This document shows positions 7,042-22,600 of a DNA stretch of 64,000 nt, one piece after another. Location: positions 1-64,000 of the forward strand of contig JAQVVR010000007.1 of NCBI GenBank assembly GCA_028698875.1, read 5' to 3'. Origin of the DNA: Candidatus Izemoplasmatales bacterium (GTDB lineage: Bacteria > Bacillota_I > Bacilli_A > Izemoplasmatales > Hujiaoplasmataceae). Under the pieces are notes generated by a model, which worked only from the letters and a program-made list of their open reading frames with translations, did no database searches and had not been told where the DNA came from. Numbering within the stretch: position 1 is the stretch's first letter; each line of letters starts with the position of its first letter. The position numbers were made by a program, and so were the translations under genes.

Positions 7042-8853
7042 ATGCTAAGTAGGATGCACATATTAATCTGTGGAGGAAAGGATTGTCTTTCTTCACATTC
7101 AAAAGAGCTTCGGGATGAGTTTCATCTCGTTTTAAGTGAACTCAATCTTCTTGATGAAGTTCGTTTAGTCATGGCCGGATGCTTTGGTCTGTGTAGTCAA
7201 GGACCAATCGTCGTCATGACACCGGGAGAAACATTTTACTCACATGTAACGGTTGCGGATATTCGCGAAATTTGTGAAGAACACGTTGTTAAAGGCAATA
7301 TTGTTGAAAGATTACTGATCAAAGAACCAATCGACAAAGCGAAAATAAAAAACTATAGTCAGTTAAAATTTTATGATCGTCAACGTCGGATTGCCCTGCG
7401 CAATTGCGGTCAAATCAATCCAACGGATATCAATGAATATATTGCCAGAGATGGCTATTTGGCTTTGGGAAAAGTACTTAGTACAATGTCACCGGCTGAA
7501 GTAGTGGCTGAAATGAAAAAATCGGGATTACGGGGTCGCGGTGGGGCCGGCTTTTCCACGGGACAAAAGTGGGAATTCGCTGCCAAATCCGTTGATGATG
7601 TTAAATATGTAATCTGTAACGCTGATGAAGGCGATCCGGGTGCTTTTATGGATCGTTCCGTCTTAGAGGGTGACCCACACTCAGTGCTAGAAGCTATGGC
7701 AATCTGCGGATATGGAATTGGTAGTCATCAAGGATATATTTATGTTCGTGCTGAATATCCAATCGCTGTTGAACGCTTAAATAATGCCATTAAACAAGCG
7801 CGTGAATTACGTCTGCTGGGTAAGAATATTTTTAGCAGCGGTTTTGCTTTTGATATTGAATTACGGTTAGGTGCGGGTGCGTTTGTCTGTGGCGAAGAAA
7901 CCGCATTAATGGCTTCCATAGAGGGCAATCGCGGGATGCCAAGACTAAAACCGCCGTTTCCGGCCGTTAAAGGTCTTTGGGGTCATCCGACAAATGTCAA
8001 TAATGTCGAAACATTCGCCAACGTTCCGGCTATCTTCTTAAAAGGGGCTGACTGGTTTAAGGCCATCGGAACCGAAAAATCTAGTGGAACAAAAGTTTTT
8101 GCCTTGGGTGGCAAAATTGCCAATACAGGATTAGTAGAAATCCCAATGGGGACAACACTCCGTGAGGTTATTTTTGACATTGGCGGCGGGATTCCGAACC
8201 ACCGAAAATTCAAAGCAGTTCAAACCGGAGGACCTTCCGGTGGTTGCATCACCGAAGCAGCGTTAGACACTCCAATTGATTTTGATTCCTTGGTAGCTAT
8301 GGGATCAATGATGGGTTCGGGCGGAATGATTGTTATGGATGAAGATAATTGCATGGTTGATGTCGCTCGTTTCTATCTTGACTTCACTGTCGATGAATCA
8401 TGCGGTAAATGTACCCCCTGTCGCGAAGGAACAAGAAGAATGCTTGATATTCTCAATAAAATCTGTGCTGGCAATGGGACTTTAGAAGATCTCGATCTTT
8501 TAGAGTCGATTGCAAACATGGTCAAAGACTCATCACTTTGTGCCTTAGGACAGTCTGCACCTAATCCGGTGCTTTCAACATTGACACATTTTCGCGATGA
8601 ATACATTGCTCATGTCGTCGACAAAGTATGCCCAGCGGGAGTATGCTCTAATTTAACAAATTACACAATCACCGATAAGTGTATCGGCTGTACAAAGTGT
8701 GCTAAGAATTGTCCAGTCAGTGCCATCAGTGGGACCGTTAAACAACAACACGTCATCGATTTGTCTAAGTGTATCCGGTGCGGCGCATGTAAGAAAGCCT
8801 GCCCAGTCAACGCTATTTCTAGCAAACCGTTGCCGAAGGAGGAAAACAAGTAA
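7042..8853 (+). CDS. hndC: Hydrogenase subunit C, NuoF-like flavoprotein (NAD(P)H diaphorase)
   Basis: 603 residues, modular. Residues 1-90 form a [2Fe-2S] thioredoxin-like domain (CGGKDC and GCFGLCSQGP). The NuoF core follows, with the FMN/NADH glycine-rich loop GLRGRGGAGFSTG, the NADH site CNADEGDPGAFMDR and the [4Fe-4S] motif CGKCTPCREG. The C-terminus adds two ferredoxin-type [4Fe-4S] motifs (CIGCTKCAKNCP and CIRCGACKKACP). This is the subunit that binds NAD(P)(H) and FMN and, in the bifurcating members of the family, splits electrons between NAD and ferredoxin. The stop TAA directly abuts the hndD ATG, so translation is likely coupled. Confidence 0.95.
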   Translation: MLSRMHILICGGKDCLSSHSKELRDEFHLVLSELNLLDEVRLVMAGCFGLCSQGPIVVMTPGETFYSHVTVADIREICEEHVVKGNIVERLLIKEPIDKAKIKNYSQLKFYDRQRRIALRNCGQINPTDINEYIARDGYLALGKVLSTMSPAEVVAEMKKSGLRGRGGAGFSTGQKWEFAAKSVDDVKYVICNADEGDPGAFMDRSVLEGDPHSVLEAMAICGYGIGSHQGYIYVRAEYPIAVERLNNAIKQARELRLLGKNIFSSGFAFDIELRLGAGAFVCGEETALMASIEGNRGMPRLKPPFPAVKGLWGHPTNVNNVETFANVPAIFLKGADWFKAIGTEKSSGTKVFALGGKIANTGLVEIPMGTTLREVIFDIGGGIPNHRKFKAVQTGGPSGGCITEAALDTPIDFDSLVAMGSMMGSGGMIVMDEDNCMVDVARFYLDFTVDESCGKCTPCREGTRRMLDILNKICAGNGTLEDLDLLESIANMVKDSSLCALGQSAPNPVLSTLTHFRDEYIAHVVDKVCPAGVCSNLTNYTITDKCIGCTKCAKNCPVSAISGTVKQQHVIDLSKCIRCGACKKACPVNAISSKPLPKEENK

Positions 8854-10605
8854 ATGGACAACTACGTGAGTGTTTTCATCGACGGTAAGCCGATTGCCGT
8901 CCCCGCCGGAACAAGTGTCTTAAAAGCAGCTGATATGGCCGGCGTTCGCATTCCTAGATTGTGTTTCTTAAAAGGTATTCACGAAGAAGGAAACTGTCGG
9001 GTTTGCGTTGTAAAAATTGAAGGACAAAGAGGATTGAAACCATCGTGCCGAACCATTGTAACCGATGGCATGTCAATCATTACCGATAACAAAGAAATTT
9101 ATGATTCAGTTTCCACTAATTTAGAAATGTTAGCGGGAAATCATAAATTTGAGTGCTGGAAGTGTTCTCGGGAAACAAGTTGCGAGTTTTTAGATTTACT
9201 GAGACGATTCTCAGTTGATAATCGTTTCAGCGAAGATGGATATAAACATAAAGAAATTCGCATTAACGACACTTCCAAAGCCATTGTTATTGATAGCTCA
9301 AAATGTGTCATGTGTGGTCGATGTGTTTCTGCATGCGAAAAATATACGGGGTTAGGCATTCTGAACTTTAACCAAAGAGGAAGCAAAACTTTTGTTGGAC
9401 CAGCGCAATTCCATAGTTTAGAAGATGCAGGCTGTATCTACTGTGGAAAGTGCATTCAATCATGCCCAACTGGTGCTATCCATGAAAAAGATGAGATAAA
9501 ATCGTTAGAACGCGTATTTCGCGATAAATCAAAAACCGTTGTTGTTCAAGTTGCTCCAGCGGTCCGGGCAGCTTTAGGTGAAGAATTTGGATATAAAATT
9601 GGCAGTAATGTTGAAGGCCAGATGTTTGCAGCATTAAAAGCATTGGGAATTCATGAAATTATTGACACCAATTTTGCAGCCGATCTGACAATTATGGAGG
9701 AAGGCACCGAATTTATTAATCGGCTGAAAAATGGTGGAGTGTTGCCGATGTTTACATCCTGCTCACCGGGCTGGATTAACTATATCGAAACATACTATCC
9801 AGAATATCTAGATAATTTATCTACCTGTAAATCACCGCAACAAATGGCTGGGGCTTTAATTAAAACCTATTATTCCGACAAACTTGGTGTAAAACCACAA
9901 GACATCGTTTCGGTTTCGATTATGCCTTGTATTGCAAAAAAAGCTGAAGCTAGACGCCCAGAAATGGGACGAGAAAATTATCGTGATGTCGATATCGTTC
10001 TGACCACCAGAGAATTGGCACGTTTGATTCGTCATCGTGGAATTGCTTTTGCCGAACTAGAACCGATAAAACCTTTTGGTAAATTAGCTGAATATACCGG
10101 AGCCGCTCCGATTTTTGGGGCAACAGGCGGAGTTATGGAAGCAGCATTACGAACAGTAACAGAAATATTAGAAGGCCATTCCACACCAGTGGAATTCACA
10201 GAGGTTCGCGGATTGGATGACATCAAAGAAGCCACATACAAAGTAGCTGGTATTGATGTTAATGTTGCCGTTGTTCACGGTGGAAGAGCAATAAAAACCT
10301 TTTTAGAAATGATGAAAAAAGGCGAAAAACAATATCATTTCGTCGAATTTATGGGATGTACCGGCGGCTGTGTCAACGGCGGTGGACAACCAATCATTAA
10401 CGCTTACACCCAAGAAAAGGTTGATGTCCGGGCGCTTCGTGCTAAAGTATTATATAATATTGATGCTAACACTCCGTTTCGCAAATCACACGAAAGTGAA
10501 GCAATCAAAGCTATTTACACTGATTTCCTTGGTGAACCGAATTCGCATAAAGCTCATGAATTATTGCATACCTCATATGAAAAACGGGGTTTTTATTCCA
10601 AATAA
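8854..10605 (+). CDS. hndD: [FeFe] hydrogenase catalytic subunit D
   Basis: 583 residues. Domains in order: [2Fe-2S] ferredoxin (C37, C48, C51, C65); His-Cys3 [4Fe-4S] site (H97, C101, C104, C110); two [4Fe-4S] motifs (C151/C154/C157/C161 and C194/C197/C200/C204); H-cluster domain; C-terminal small-subunit domain (SHEILHT-like end, here KAHELLHTSY). H-cluster loops are L1 TSCSPGW (C303), L2 MPCIAKKAEA (C359) and L3 EFMGCTGGCVNGGGQP (C501, C505). L1 has Ser304 where monomeric enzymes such as the Clostridium pasteurianum one have the second Cys of TSCCPGW. No hydE, hydF or hydG maturase is in the window, so they must lie elsewhere. It catalyses reversible proton reduction to H2 in the cytoplasm. 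Confidence 0.95.
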   Translation: MDNYVSVFIDGKPIAVPAGTSVLKAADMAGVRIPRLCFLKGIHEEGNCRVCVVKIEGQRGLKPSCRTIVTDGMSIITDNKEIYDSVSTNLEMLAGNHKFECWKCSRETSCEFLDLLRRFSVDNRFSEDGYKHKEIRINDTSKAIVIDSSKCVMCGRCVSACEKYTGLGILNFNQRGSKTFVGPAQFHSLEDAGCIYCGKCIQSCPTGAIHEKDEIKSLERVFRDKSKTVVVQVAPAVRAALGEEFGYKIGSNVEGQMFAALKALGIHEIIDTNFAADLTIMEEGTEFINRLKNGGVLPMFTSCSPGWINYIETYYPEYLDNLSTCKSPQQMAGALIKTYYSDKLGVKPQDIVSVSIMPCIAKKAEARRPEMGRENYRDVDIVLTTRELARLIRHRGIAFAELEPIKPFGKLAEYTGAAPIFGATGGVMEAALRTVTEILEGHSTPVEFTEVRGLDDIKEATYKVAGIDVNVAVVHGGRAIKTFLEMMKKGEKQYHFVEFMGCTGGCVNGGGQPIINAYTQEKVDVRALRAKVLYNIDANTPFRKSHESEAIKAIYTDFLGEPNSHKAHELLHTSYEKRGFYSK

Positions 10606-10610
10606 ACGAA

Positions 10611-10642
10611 AAAAGGTTTTCCCAAACCAGGGAAAACCTTTT
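10611..10642. terminator. Bidirectional terminator between hndD and the Crp-family gene
   Basis: Perfect 13-bp stem AAAAGGTTTTCCC (10611-10623) / GGGAAAACCTTTT (10630-10642) with a 6-base loop. A-rich and T-rich flanks serve both convergent genes. Confidence 0.95.
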
Positions 10643-11243
10643 ATTTTATCAAAGTAATAACACGATTATTAACAAGTATCAACCGTGCTTTTTGCATTTT
10701 TGATAATTCCCGCGATAGAGAAGGACGACGGACATTGAGCATTGTTGCTAAAGTTTCACGAGTCATGGGTAGAACAATGGATTTTTTGTTTTGACTTCGA
10801 GATTCATATTCTAAATAGAAGAGCAATTTGTCACGAAGTGTTGGCAGCCCAAGTAACTTTATATTTTGTTTAAGATGAAAGGTTTTATCAGCCAACATAG
10901 ATAAGTAGTTTACTAGAAATTCTGCGTTTGACTGAAGTAATCGAATAAATGATTCCATATCAAAATAAATAACCGTTGAAGCTTTCATAGCCACAACATT
11001 ACCTAGATAGGTTTTGGCTTTGGCAAATAACATGACATCGCCAAAAAACTGGCCAGGCAGGATGTCTTGAATTATAAACTCACTGCCATCTGGGGTAATG
11101 GAACGGATGATAATTTCGCCACTAACAACATAAGCTATTTGTTGACAAATATCACCTTCTAAAAATATTATTTCATTTGCTTGATATTTTATTTTGTTGG
11201 CCGAAAAACTGATAATTTTATCCTCAAAATCAAATGCGCTCAT
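10641..11243 (-). CDS. Crp/Fnr-family transcriptional regulator
   Basis: 200 residues from the ATG complementary to 11241-11243. AAAGGGG precedes it, whereas the more upstream ATG at 11264 lies inside the operator. An N-terminal cyclic-nucleotide-binding-like beta barrel (IIFLEGDICQQIAYVVSGEI, GQFFGDVMLF) is followed by a long dimer helix and a winged helix-turn-helix with TRETLATMLNVRRPSLSREL as recognition region. There is no N-terminal cysteine cluster, so it is not an Fnr oxygen sensor. The ligand is unknown. A palindrome at its own transcription start (11257-11272) suggests autorepression, and the divergent transporter genes are the likely target. Confidence 0.9.
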   Translation of the reverse strand: MSAFDFEDKIISFSANKIKYQANEIIFLEGDICQQIAYVVSGEIIIRSITPDGSEFIIQDILPGQFFGDVMLFAKAKTYLGNVVAMKASTVIYFDMESFIRLLQSNAEFLVNYLSMLADKTFHLKQNIKLLGLPTLRDKLLFYLEYESRSQNKKSIVLPMTRETLATMLNVRRPSLSRELSKMQKARLILVNNRVITLIK

Positions 11244-11256
11244 ATATTTACCCCTT

Positions 11257-11272
11257 TGTAACATAGGTTACA
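11257..11272. promoter_or_regulatory. Palindromic operator TGTAAC-N4-GTTACA for the Crp-family regulator
   Basis: TGTAAC (11257-11262) ATAG GTTACA (11267-11272) is a perfect 6+6 palindrome. Its centre (11264.5) is about 41.5 bases upstream of the start predicted for the rightward transporter promoter, the class II activation position. It also covers the predicted start of the leftward regulator promoter, a repressing position. The half-site recalls GTAAC-type sites described for some clostridial Crp/Fnr regulators. Confidence 0.7.
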
Positions 11273-19366: not shown

Positions 19367-20542
19367 ATGCGCAATTTTACTTTTTATAGTCCAACTGAAT
19401 TTGTCTTTGGTCGAAAAACCGAAGAGCAGGTAGGAATACTCTTAAAGAAATATGGAGCTTCGAAGGTCTTGATTCATTTTGGTGGAGGATCAATTATTAA
19501 ATCGGGTTTGCTCCCAAGAATCGAGACGTTATTAAAAGCAGAAAATATCAAATACATTCTATTTGGCGGGGCACAACCCAATCCAAGAAGCGGGCTTGTT
19601 TACCAGGGTATCAAACTATGTAAACGAGAAAATATCGATTTTATTCTCGCTGTTGGTGGCGGCTCGGCCATAGACTCGGCCAAAGCCATAGCTGCGGGAG
19701 CGAAATATGATGGTGATTTTTGGGATTTCTTTGATGGAACAGCAATAATAAAGGCAGCCATTAAAATTGGTGTGATTTTAACTTTACCGGCATCGGGGTC
19801 AGAAGGGTCCCATCGATCGGTTATTACCAAAGAAGAGGGTATGCTAAAAAGAGGAGCGGGAAATGAATTTATCCGGCCAGTGTTTTCAATCATTAACCCT
19901 GAGTTGACATTTACATTACCCGCATATCAAACTGCCGCTGGGATTGTTGATATGATGTCGCATATTTTTGAACGATATTTAACAAAGACTCCCAACGTTG
20001 ACCTTACAGATCGCCTTTGCGAAGCAACCTTGGTTTCCATCATTGAAGCCGGGCGAAAAGTAATGGATGATCCATATGATTATGAGGCAAGAGCGACGCT
20101 CTGTTGGTCGGGAACAATTGCACATAATGGCATATTAGGTGTTGGCAGAGTTGAAGATTGGGCAACGCATCAGTTAGAACACGAATTGTCTGCACGATAT
20201 GATGTTACGCATGGAGCGGGATTAGCTGTGATGTTTCCCGCTTATATGAAATATGCTTTGGATACGGATATCAATCGTTTCCAAAGGCTGGCTATCAATG
20301 TTTGGGGTGTCGAATCCGGTTCACAAACCCCCACAGAAATTGCTCTTAACGGCATAAGCGCAATGAAAACTTTCTTTAAAAAAATTGGGATGCCGACTTC
20401 TTTTTCAGAAATCGGCGCCCTAGAAAAAGACATTGATTTTCTGGTTAGCAAATTATTTCAAGGCAAGAGTAATAATTTTGGTGCATTCAAGTCCCTTACT
20501 CCCGAAGGGGCAAGGATGGTATATCGCATTGCGTGTGAATAA
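19367..20542 (+). CDS. Iron-containing alcohol dehydrogenase (butanol dehydrogenase-like)
   Basis: 391 residues, a normal length for type III dehydrogenases. The N-terminal NAD(P)-binding domain carries VGGGSAIDSAKAIA; the metal site is D195, H199 (GIVDMMSHIFE), H268 and H282 (DWATHQLEHELSARYDVTHG). This arrangement is closest to the NAD(P)H-dependent butanol/long-chain aldehyde reductases of clostridia (BdhA/YqhD side). It probably reduces aldehydes to alcohols as an electron sink in fermentation. RBS AAGGAGGGG lies 6 bases upstream. Monocistronic. Confidence 0.92.
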   Translation: MRNFTFYSPTEFVFGRKTEEQVGILLKKYGASKVLIHFGGGSIIKSGLLPRIETLLKAENIKYILFGGAQPNPRSGLVYQGIKLCKRENIDFILAVGGGSAIDSAKAIAAGAKYDGDFWDFFDGTAIIKAAIKIGVILTLPASGSEGSHRSVITKEEGMLKRGAGNEFIRPVFSIINPELTFTLPAYQTAAGIVDMMSHIFERYLTKTPNVDLTDRLCEATLVSIIEAGRKVMDDPYDYEARATLCWSGTIAHNGILGVGRVEDWATHQLEHELSARYDVTHGAGLAVMFPAYMKYALDTDINRFQRLAINVWGVESGSQTPTEIALNGISAMKTFFKKIGMPTSFSEIGALEKDIDFLVSKLFQGKSNNFGAFKSLTPEGARMVYRIACE

Positions 20543-20549
20543 AAAAATT

Positions 20550-20580
20550 AGACGTTGGGTTTTCCAACGTCTTTTTTTTT
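20550..20580. terminator. Bidirectional terminator between the alcohol dehydrogenase and heliorhodopsin genes
   Basis: Stem AGACGTTGG (20550-20558) / CCAACGTCT (20564-20572) with T tract to 20580; the A-run on the left provides the T tract for the minus strand. Confidence 0.93.
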
Positions 20581-21370
20581 AAGGCTGCATCGCACCAAAC
20601 AGTACCAACCAAGCCAAAAGCGTTTTGGCCACGAGACTCAAGATAATATAGACTCGCTCACCATATAAATAATTTTTCCATTTTCCCACCTTTAAATATT
20701 GAAGAATCATATTTATGGGAAAAGTATTGAATGCAACAAAATATGTGACTACAATTGCCCAAACGAACCAAGGAATCTGATCATAATTTCCCGTTCCGGT
20801 CATATATAGCAGAATTACAATCCATGGCGTTACACCAGCAATTGAACCCCAAACAAAGGGGGTCCAATTCACTTTGCCTTGTTTACCAGAATTTAATTGT
20901 TCCATAACGAGACCGAAAATATTCATCAACGCATTGAGCACAAAAATCAGAATTAACGATCCAATATCGTAAACCCCAAATAGTGTGGCAATTAAAACAA
21001 TCATAATTGATGAACTAAGAGCATATTCGAACCAACGAAACTTGTTAATTCCTTTTTCTAAATCAGCATTATACAGTTCATTTAGTTTTTTAGGAATTGA
21101 GATTAAAGCATGCGCCACGGCTGAAATTAGTAAAAAGGACGCGACCATGATTCCAAACGGAAGCGTGAATAAATCACGAGACATCGGTTCTAAGGATTGA
21201 GTCAATGGATTGTATGTTAAATATATCTGGGTAATGACTGGTTGGAATTCAGCAATCTTCTGAATTATCGATGTCGCTAGAAAAATCATTAAAATGCCTT
21301 GAATCAAATGGAGTCCACCCATCATCATGTTAAAACGTCTTAACTTTGGAAATGTGAGAACGTCTTTCAT
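20579..21370 (-). CDS. Heliorhodopsin (retinal-binding 7-helix light sensor)
   Basis: 263 residues with seven membrane helices. Heliorhodopsin hallmarks appear in order: LRRFN...GGLHLIQG in helix 1 (H21), AVAHAL (H87), the counterion segment FRWFEYALSSSIMI in helix 3 (E115), NIFGLVME, FVWGSIAGVTPWIVI, and ILSLVAKTLLAW in helix 7 with the retinal Schiff-base lysine K249. The E115-K249 distance (134) equals that between E107 and K241 of heliorhodopsin 48C12. Heliorhodopsins are inverted relative to type-1 rhodopsins (N-terminus inside), do not pump ions in known cases, and are largely confined to monoderm bacteria, archaea and some eukaryotes/viruses. Strong RBS GGAGG. No retinal-forming oxygenase gene is in the window. 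Divergent from a dehydratase/epimerase gene. Confidence 0.93.
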   Translation of the reverse strand: MKDVLTFPKLRRFNMMMGGLHLIQGILMIFLATSIIQKIAEFQPVITQIYLTYNPLTQSLEPMSRDLFTLPFGIMVASFLLISAVAHALISIPKKLNELYNADLEKGINKFRWFEYALSSSIMIVLIATLFGVYDIGSLILIFVLNALMNIFGLVMEQLNSGKQGKVNWTPFVWGSIAGVTPWIVILLYMTGTGNYDQIPWFVWAIVVTYFVAFNTFPINMILQYLKVGKWKNYLYGERVYIILSLVAKTLLAWLVLFGAMQP

Positions 21371-21405
21371 TTTTTTCCTCCGAAAAATAACGATTTGATA
21401 TCTTC

Positions 21406-21434
21406 ATTCTATCATATAATTTTAACAATCGCAA
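21406..21434 (-). promoter_or_regulatory. Candidate promoter of the heliorhodopsin gene
   Basis: Reading leftward: TTGCGA (21434-21429), 17 bp, TAGAAT (21411-21406). Predicted leader of about 30 bases. Confidence 0.55.
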
Positions 21435-21511: not shown

Positions 21512-21529
21512 AGTAAACGTCTGTTTACT
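21512..21529. promoter_or_regulatory. Palindromic operator overlapping the epimerase -35 box
   Basis: AGTAAAC (21512-21518) GTCT GTTTACT (21523-21529), a perfect 7+7 inverted repeat of a size and style typical of TetR-family operators. It covers the -35 hexamer, so a bound protein would repress. Confidence 0.6.
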
Positions 21530-21552: not shown

Positions 21553-21583
21553 AAGTATGTAAAAGGATATGGAGAGTGATATT

Positions 21584-22600
21584 ATGAAATGCATCGTTAC
21601 TGGAGCGACGGGACATATTGGCAACGTTCTCGTCAAACAACTATATAAACGCGGTTATGAAATACAAGCAATTGTATTGCCAAAAGATGATTATAAAATG
21701 ATTGAACCATATGCAGAGATTGTCTTTGGAAACATTCTTGATGTCGCATTTTTAGAAGCAACACTGCAAAATGTTGATTTTGTTTTTCATTTGGCGGGTA
21801 TTGTTGAAATTGGATCAGGAAAAAAGCAATCAATTATGAAAGTCAATGTTGAAGGCACGAAAAATGTTGTCAATGCTTGCTTAAAAAATCATATCAAACG
21901 TCTCATTTATACTTCAAGCGTTCACGCAATTCCAGAATTACCAAAACCGGAATTAATGACGGAAATAAATCATTTTGATCCAGCGTTGGTAAAGGGCAAT
22001 TATGGAAAATCAAAAGCCATAGCAACCCAAATTGTTATGGATCAAAAGGATTCTGATTTAGATGTTGTAATCGTTCATCCCACCGGAGTCATCGGGCCGG
22101 CTGACTATAAGTTATCAAATGTTAGCCAAATGTTCGTCGATTTCCTCTGTGGACGGCTTACAGCATACCTCAAAGGCGGATATAATTTCGTTGATGTCCG
22201 TGATGTCGCTAATGGCATCATACTCGCAGCTGAAAAGGGCAAAAGAGGTGAATGCTATATTTTGTCCGGTTCAGAAATCACCGTCAAAGAATTGTTGGAT
22301 GAAATATCTATAATCTCGGGACGGAAACGGATTAAAACCAAATTGGCATTTTGGTTCATTTTGGCCATGAGTTATTTTGCAGAAATCTATTACAAAATTG
22401 CCAAACAAAAACCATTGTTTACTCACTACTCGATAATTGTTTTAAATTCAAATTATCATTTTTCCAATGAAAAAGCCAAACGAGAATTAGGATTTACGAC
22501 TAGAGATATCAAAGTTTCAATCAAAGATGCAATGGATTTTGCCATTGAAAATTATCTAACAAAAAATGGAACTAAATTTAAGATGAAATCGCTGGAATAA
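21584..22600 (+). CDS. NAD(P)-dependent epimerase/dehydratase (extended SDR, dihydroflavonol-reductase-like)
   Basis: 338 residues from ATG 21584, which follows GGAGAG by 7 bases; the ATG at 21569 has no proper spacing. The Rossmann motif TGATGHIG is at the N-terminus and the catalytic YxxxK is Y140/K144 (GNYGKSKA), with serines 111-112 before it. The motifs VHPTGVIGP and FVDVRDVANGI are typical of the 3-beta-HSD/dihydroflavonol reductase/HpnA side of the extended SDRs. The substrate is not evident. A palindrome over its -35 box suggests repression by a TetR-like protein that is not encoded in this window. Confidence 0.85.
   Translation: MKCIVTGATGHIGNVLVKQLYKRGYEIQAIVLPKDDYKMIEPYAEIVFGNILDVAFLEATLQNVDFVFHLAGIVEIGSGKKQSIMKVNVEGTKNVVNACLKNHIKRLIYTSSVHAIPELPKPELMTEINHFDPALVKGNYGKSKAIATQIVMDQKDSDLDVVIVHPTGVIGPADYKLSNVSQMFVDFLCGRLTAYLKGGYNFVDVRDVANGIILAAEKGKRGECYILSGSEITVKELLDEISIISGRKRIKTKLAFWFILAMSYFAEIYYKIAKQKPLFTHYSIIVLNSNYHFSNEKAKRELGFTTRDIKVSIKDAMDFAIENYLTKNGTKFKMKSLE

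Follow-up and report, generated by a model that had tools for sequence, protein, structure and literature searches.

A well-preserved heliorhodopsin gene in a likely fermentative Izemoplasmatales bacterium with no match to known retinal-forming enzymes

Heliorhodopsins (HeRs) have been described from several kinds of hosts. TfHeR, from the Gram-positive bacterium Trichococcus flocculiformis, is encoded in an operon with a class II photolyase and binds photolyase via E97, R162, and K227 (PMC9769723). HeR 48C12 (PDB 6SU3, 6UH3) belongs to a freshwater actinobacterium, and TaHeR (PDB 6IS6, 7U55) to the Thermoplasmatales archaeon SG8-52-1. The TaHeR host is without retinal synthesis, and uptake of external retinal was proposed for it; HeR structures have a lateral opening close to the ring of retinal, facing the membrane, which is the proposed retinal entry in TaHeR (PMC9385722). 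HeRs of strictly anaerobic Firmicutes are already published, and the MORN-HeRs of anaerobic Firmicutes carry N-terminal MORN repeats (PMC8612252). Regarding gene context, photolyase, DUF2177, DUF2238, and SDR genes are published HeR neighbours, the SDR family being one of ten such groups (PMC11109279). Our limited literature search retrieved no paper covering both heliorhodopsin and Tenericutes.

We analysed a stretch of 64,000 nucleotides (the window) from a draft Izemoplasmatales genome (1.42 Mb, 88% complete) and confirmed that positions 20579-21370 hold a genuine, full-length, and well-preserved heliorhodopsin gene. Its frame of 263 amino acids is open on the minus strand, and the plus strand is stop-rich there. 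The profile search suggested with the original prediction of a heliorhodopsin matched the Pfam Heliorhodopsin family (PF18761) over the whole profile (positions 1-242 of 242), with 327 bits (E 8e-98) against a cut-off of 26.7 bits. Six distinct PDB sequences matched the protein, all of them named heliorhodopsin, the best being TaHeR (6is6, E 4e-61).

The residues picked out beforehand from the letters were the right ones. When aligned to 48C12, the Schiff-base lysine K249 (in LVAKTLLAW) corresponds to K241, the counterion E115 (in RWFEY, helix 3) to E107, and the histidines H21 and H87 to H23 and H80; both proteins have an E-to-K spacing of 134, as had been claimed for the founding HeR. The Schiff-base motif SxxxK of helix 7 reads S245-L-V-A-K249, within SLVAKTLLAW. 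Across 108 aligned rows (the window HeR, 105 relatives, and two solved HeRs), K249 and E115 were kept in 108/108 and S245 in 107/108, and S83, S119, and W183 were also invariant.

Likewise, the predicted seven helices were recovered as seven peaks of the hydropathy profile and seven long helices in an AlphaFold model (pLDDT 88.7, pTM 0.85; input of 40 sequences from the window and related loci). A structure search with this model retrieved TaHeR as the best match (TM 0.87/0.91) and 48C12 next, while non-HeR rhodopsins appeared only from E about 1e-3. The model displays a long A-B loop (strands 45-54 and 59-69) and a helical B-C loop (helix 94-105), both described as HeR features (PMC9385722). 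The predicted topology places 15 lysines and arginines in cytoplasmic segments vs. 2 outside, and the inside count exceeded the outside one in 108/108 rows, which fits a putative inverted topology with a cytoplasmic N-terminus.

When compared to the described systems, the window HeR resembles TfHeR in its 77% full-length identity, its key residues, and its Gram-positive host, but TfHeR shares an operon with a class II photolyase, whereas the window HeR stands alone in a genus with no photolyase match. Among solved structures, TaHeR comes closest, at 45% identity in the fold alignment, and its host similarly lacks retinal synthesis; however, it is archaeal and its loop sequences differ. 48C12 has counterparts of all four key residues at 39% identity in the fold alignment. 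The MORN-HeRs also come from anaerobic Firmicutes, but a Pfam search found no MORN repeats in the window HeR. The window HeR is a solid addition to a known family, with a natural contrast, and not a new type of system.

The window HeR stands alone and has a ribosome-binding site and a terminator of its own. On the minus strand, a GGAGG read from the sequence (21377-21381) lies 6 bases before the ATG, and a two-way intrinsic terminator (20550-20572; a 9-10-pair stem and then a T-run, on both strands) separates HeR from its convergent neighbour, an iron-containing alcohol dehydrogenase (Fe-ADH; 19367-20542, plus strand; PF00465/PF25137). The divergent neighbour is a NAD-dependent epimerase/dehydratase of the extended SDR type (21569-22600, plus strand; PF01370). 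A candidate HeR promoter (TTGCGA-17-TAGAAT with TG before the -10; 21406-21434, minus strand) came from a consensus scan whose promoter-like sites equal those of shuffles in number, no more than chance; the sister species retains its TGATAGAATG block, as aligned with L025, a contig of 3875 bases bearing the HeR of the same-genus genome G002. The gene order GDPD, Fe-ADH, HeR, epimerase is the same in L025. Between HeR and the epimerase, a perfect palindrome (AGTAAAC-GTCT-GTTTACT; 21512-21529) overlaps a promoter-like site of the epimerase, is partly kept in L025, and occurs a single time in the window, allowing up to 2 mismatches. It is a candidate operator, possibly a repressor site.

HeR is 91% identical between the host and G002, with a dN of 0.056 (NG86) and a saturated dS; the epimerase had a dN of 0.067 and Fe-ADH one of 0.114. 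Judged from these rates, the HeR gene is under strong purifying selection, and the conservation of K249 and E115 together with the low dN goes far beyond chance. Since the low dN against a saturated dS is accompanied by invariant pocket residues, selection maintains the pocket, and a function with retinal and light is thus likely.

HeRs above the cut-off were present in 43/61 genomes of the order Izemoplasmatales, among them all three of the window's genus, and 335 stretches of the GTDB collection encode a relative. The best 80 of these 335 present about 70-91% identity to the window HeR and include Trichococcus, Fusibacter, Anaerobium, Proteiniclasticum, Acholeplasmataceae, and Anaerolineaceae. 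An HeR is not odd for this group: close HeRs occur in many fermenters. With the sister species set aside, the HeRs among the best 80 of 335 are almost equally close to the window HeR (70-79% identity), whereas methionyl-tRNA synthetase identity is 80-68% among members of the genus, drops to 54-47% in isolates of other Bacillota, and reaches only about 27% in Anaerolineaceae, where it may be another synthetase type. In a tree built with a quick method, the HeRs of the order do not form one clade, with 11 label changes, at least three of them forced by the starred branches. The flat HeR identity against the falling synthetase identity and the non-clade tree suggest that HeR genes were exchanged between lineages. 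Contaminated MAGs may make cross-phylum cases look more numerous; isolates are unaffected.

Several other loci of the order deserve mention. Weak PF18761 matches in family f2 (G038, G044) were discarded as transporter-like membrane proteins (EamA-type reading). Two genomes of about 1.0 Mb (G048 and G058; L135, L136, L143) harbor three HeR copies each, with photolyase not detected, and in G030 (L128) the HeR is split by a TAA, so that this copy is either decaying or misassembled.

The related HeRs most often had a class II CPD photolyase as neighbour, at 26 loci (some from the same genome twice). We assigned this family from our own reading of the sequence, from the position of the gene in the operon of Trichococcus (PMC9769723), and from a PF00875 match to the copy in G011. 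In about ten genomes belonging to the window's family, only a few genes separate it from HeR, and the two are mostly divergent. Considering the 61 genomes of the order, 35 encode both genes, 8 HeR only, 4 photolyase only, and 14 neither (Fisher p 2e-5), so that photolyase accompanies 35/43 HeR-bearing vs. 4/18 HeR-less genomes. The co-occurrence held when stratified by genus (z 2.7) and includes genus g13, where both genes are far apart; it was weaker when only genomes with a completeness of 85% or more were counted in the two families that bear HeR (p 0.052). Adjacency and common descent partly account for the link, and both of them weaken it, as does completeness.

At the metabolic level, the host had been described as apparently fermentative and hydrogenase-bearing, and this reading holds. 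The window encodes a NuoF-like hydrogenase subunit (7042-8853, plus strand; PF01512, PF10589) and the catalytic subunit of a [FeFe]-hydrogenase with large and small domains (8854-10605, plus strand; PF02906 with 321 bits, PF02256). A Crp-like regulator (10641-11264, minus strand) comes directly after them. Searches for terminal oxidases (cytochrome bd, PF01654; heme-copper, PF00115), each with positive controls, gave no match in the 34 genomes of the family, host included. The [FeFe]-hydrogenase and the lack of an oxidase match indicate that the host is likely a fermentative anaerobe. Its inferred family, UBA5603, is described as DNA-degrading and mainly from the terrestrial subsurface (PMC8289736).

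The earlier observation that the window has no gene for retinal formation extends to the draft host genome, where the recommended search for blh/brp (PF15461), carotenoid oxygenase (PF03055), and phytoene synthase (PF00494) found no match. For the order (61 genomes), no match above cut-off was found to PF03055, with a positive control present, or to PF15461, in a search without a positive control above cut-off. Phytoene synthase was found in 0/34 genomes of the window's family, host included, with a positive control present. Such absences apply to draft genomes (the host's being 88% complete) and to known enzyme families. A PF15461 match in G013 was partial and below cut-off (20.7 bits), and we did not take it as a retinal enzyme. 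Elsewhere in the order, 11 genomes of family f3 have phytoene-synthase-like matches to PF00494. Three f3 loci (L021, L022, L023) carry a gene resembling phytoene/dehydrosqualene synthase, which in L021 is next to a desaturase-like gene and close to phytol-kinase-like genes; f3 thus seems to have carotenoid synthesis without a known cleavage enzyme.

Because the order has no match to a known retinal-forming enzyme and the family none to phytoene synthase, retinal is most likely imported from the surroundings rather than self-made by known enzymes. We consider it probable, with moderate confidence, that the gene encodes a working retinal-binding photoreceptor that uses scavenged retinal and signals to a partner other than photolyase. 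The product would be a seven-helix membrane protein with a cytoplasmic N-terminus. Retinal, or a retinoid precursor, would be taken from the debris of other organisms and would attach to K249. Light would isomerise the retinal and cause proton shifts at the Schiff base inside the protein, and a change of shape in the cytoplasmic loops would be relayed to a partner. For much of the order, protection from light or UV is the likely context, and class II photolyase often accompanies HeR there. In the window's genus the partner would be another one, and our best guess is a regulator of light stress or metabolism. A PAS-domain search of the host gave five matches, none on the window's contig.

Other chromophore arrangements have to be weighed. 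The original prediction had left an anaerobe three options (scavenging retinal, living partly in oxic light, or using the protein without retinal); the last is disfavoured by the invariant K249, and the list missed retinal formation by an unknown route. Such a route, perhaps O2-independent, would make the HeR a self-sufficient photoreceptor, and Aurantimicrobium minutum does contain retinal without known genes (PMC7734400); however, no carotenoid precursor is visible in a family where phytoene synthase is missing from every genome, and we regard this option as improbable. A protein working without retinal, or with a different ligand on K249, would suit an apparently anaerobic host with no known retinal source, but the lysine, counterion, and pocket are invariant over the 108 rows. 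Loss of retinal binding is disfavoured because lysine and counterion are invariant, and we give this option little credence. The habitat speaks against our preferred reading, since the terrestrial subsurface, where UBA5603 mainly lives (PMC8289736), should be poor in light and retinal. A working HeR with an intact pocket in a lineage that makes no retinal and meets little of it could mean specialised scavenging in dark-sediment anaerobes or a non-light sensor of another ligand, which we judge improbable.

Regarding the partner, the HeR might aid a class II CPD photolyase in the repair of UV damage, as TfHeR does in Trichococcus. The close identity to this photolyase-binding protein and the frequent photolyase neighbours favour it, and the window HeR has E98, K163, and K227 where TfHeR has E97, R162, and K227. 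However, the residues at these loop positions differ from one HeR to another, and genomes without photolyase retain the positive charges too, so we rejected them as a sign of photolyase binding. Moreover, no photolyase was found by protein search or PF00875, in an operon or in the genome, in the three drafts of the window's genus (G000, G001, G002); the published TfHeR mechanism therefore cannot apply there as described, and this role is highly improbable. Alternatively, the HeR could act on the SDR epimerase encoded next to it, or influence metabolism via another nearby partner, like AbHeR (glutamine synthetase) or OcHeR (ABC transporter). SDR genes are among the published neighbours and the order Fe-ADH, HeR, epimerase is shared with the sister species, but both genes lie on opposite strands, HeR has its separate terminator, and the pairing is seen only in the window's genus. 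This makes it unlikely, if slightly less so than the chromophore alternatives above.

The role of HeRs is unsettled, and Izemoplasmatales offers natural contrasts: some species have both HeR and photolyase, some have neither, and some, like the one studied here, have only HeR. These contrasts allow testing HeR function separately from photolyase. Finally, since the window's family as a whole appears to synthesise neither retinal nor carotenoids, it directly raises the question of where anaerobes obtain the chromophore.
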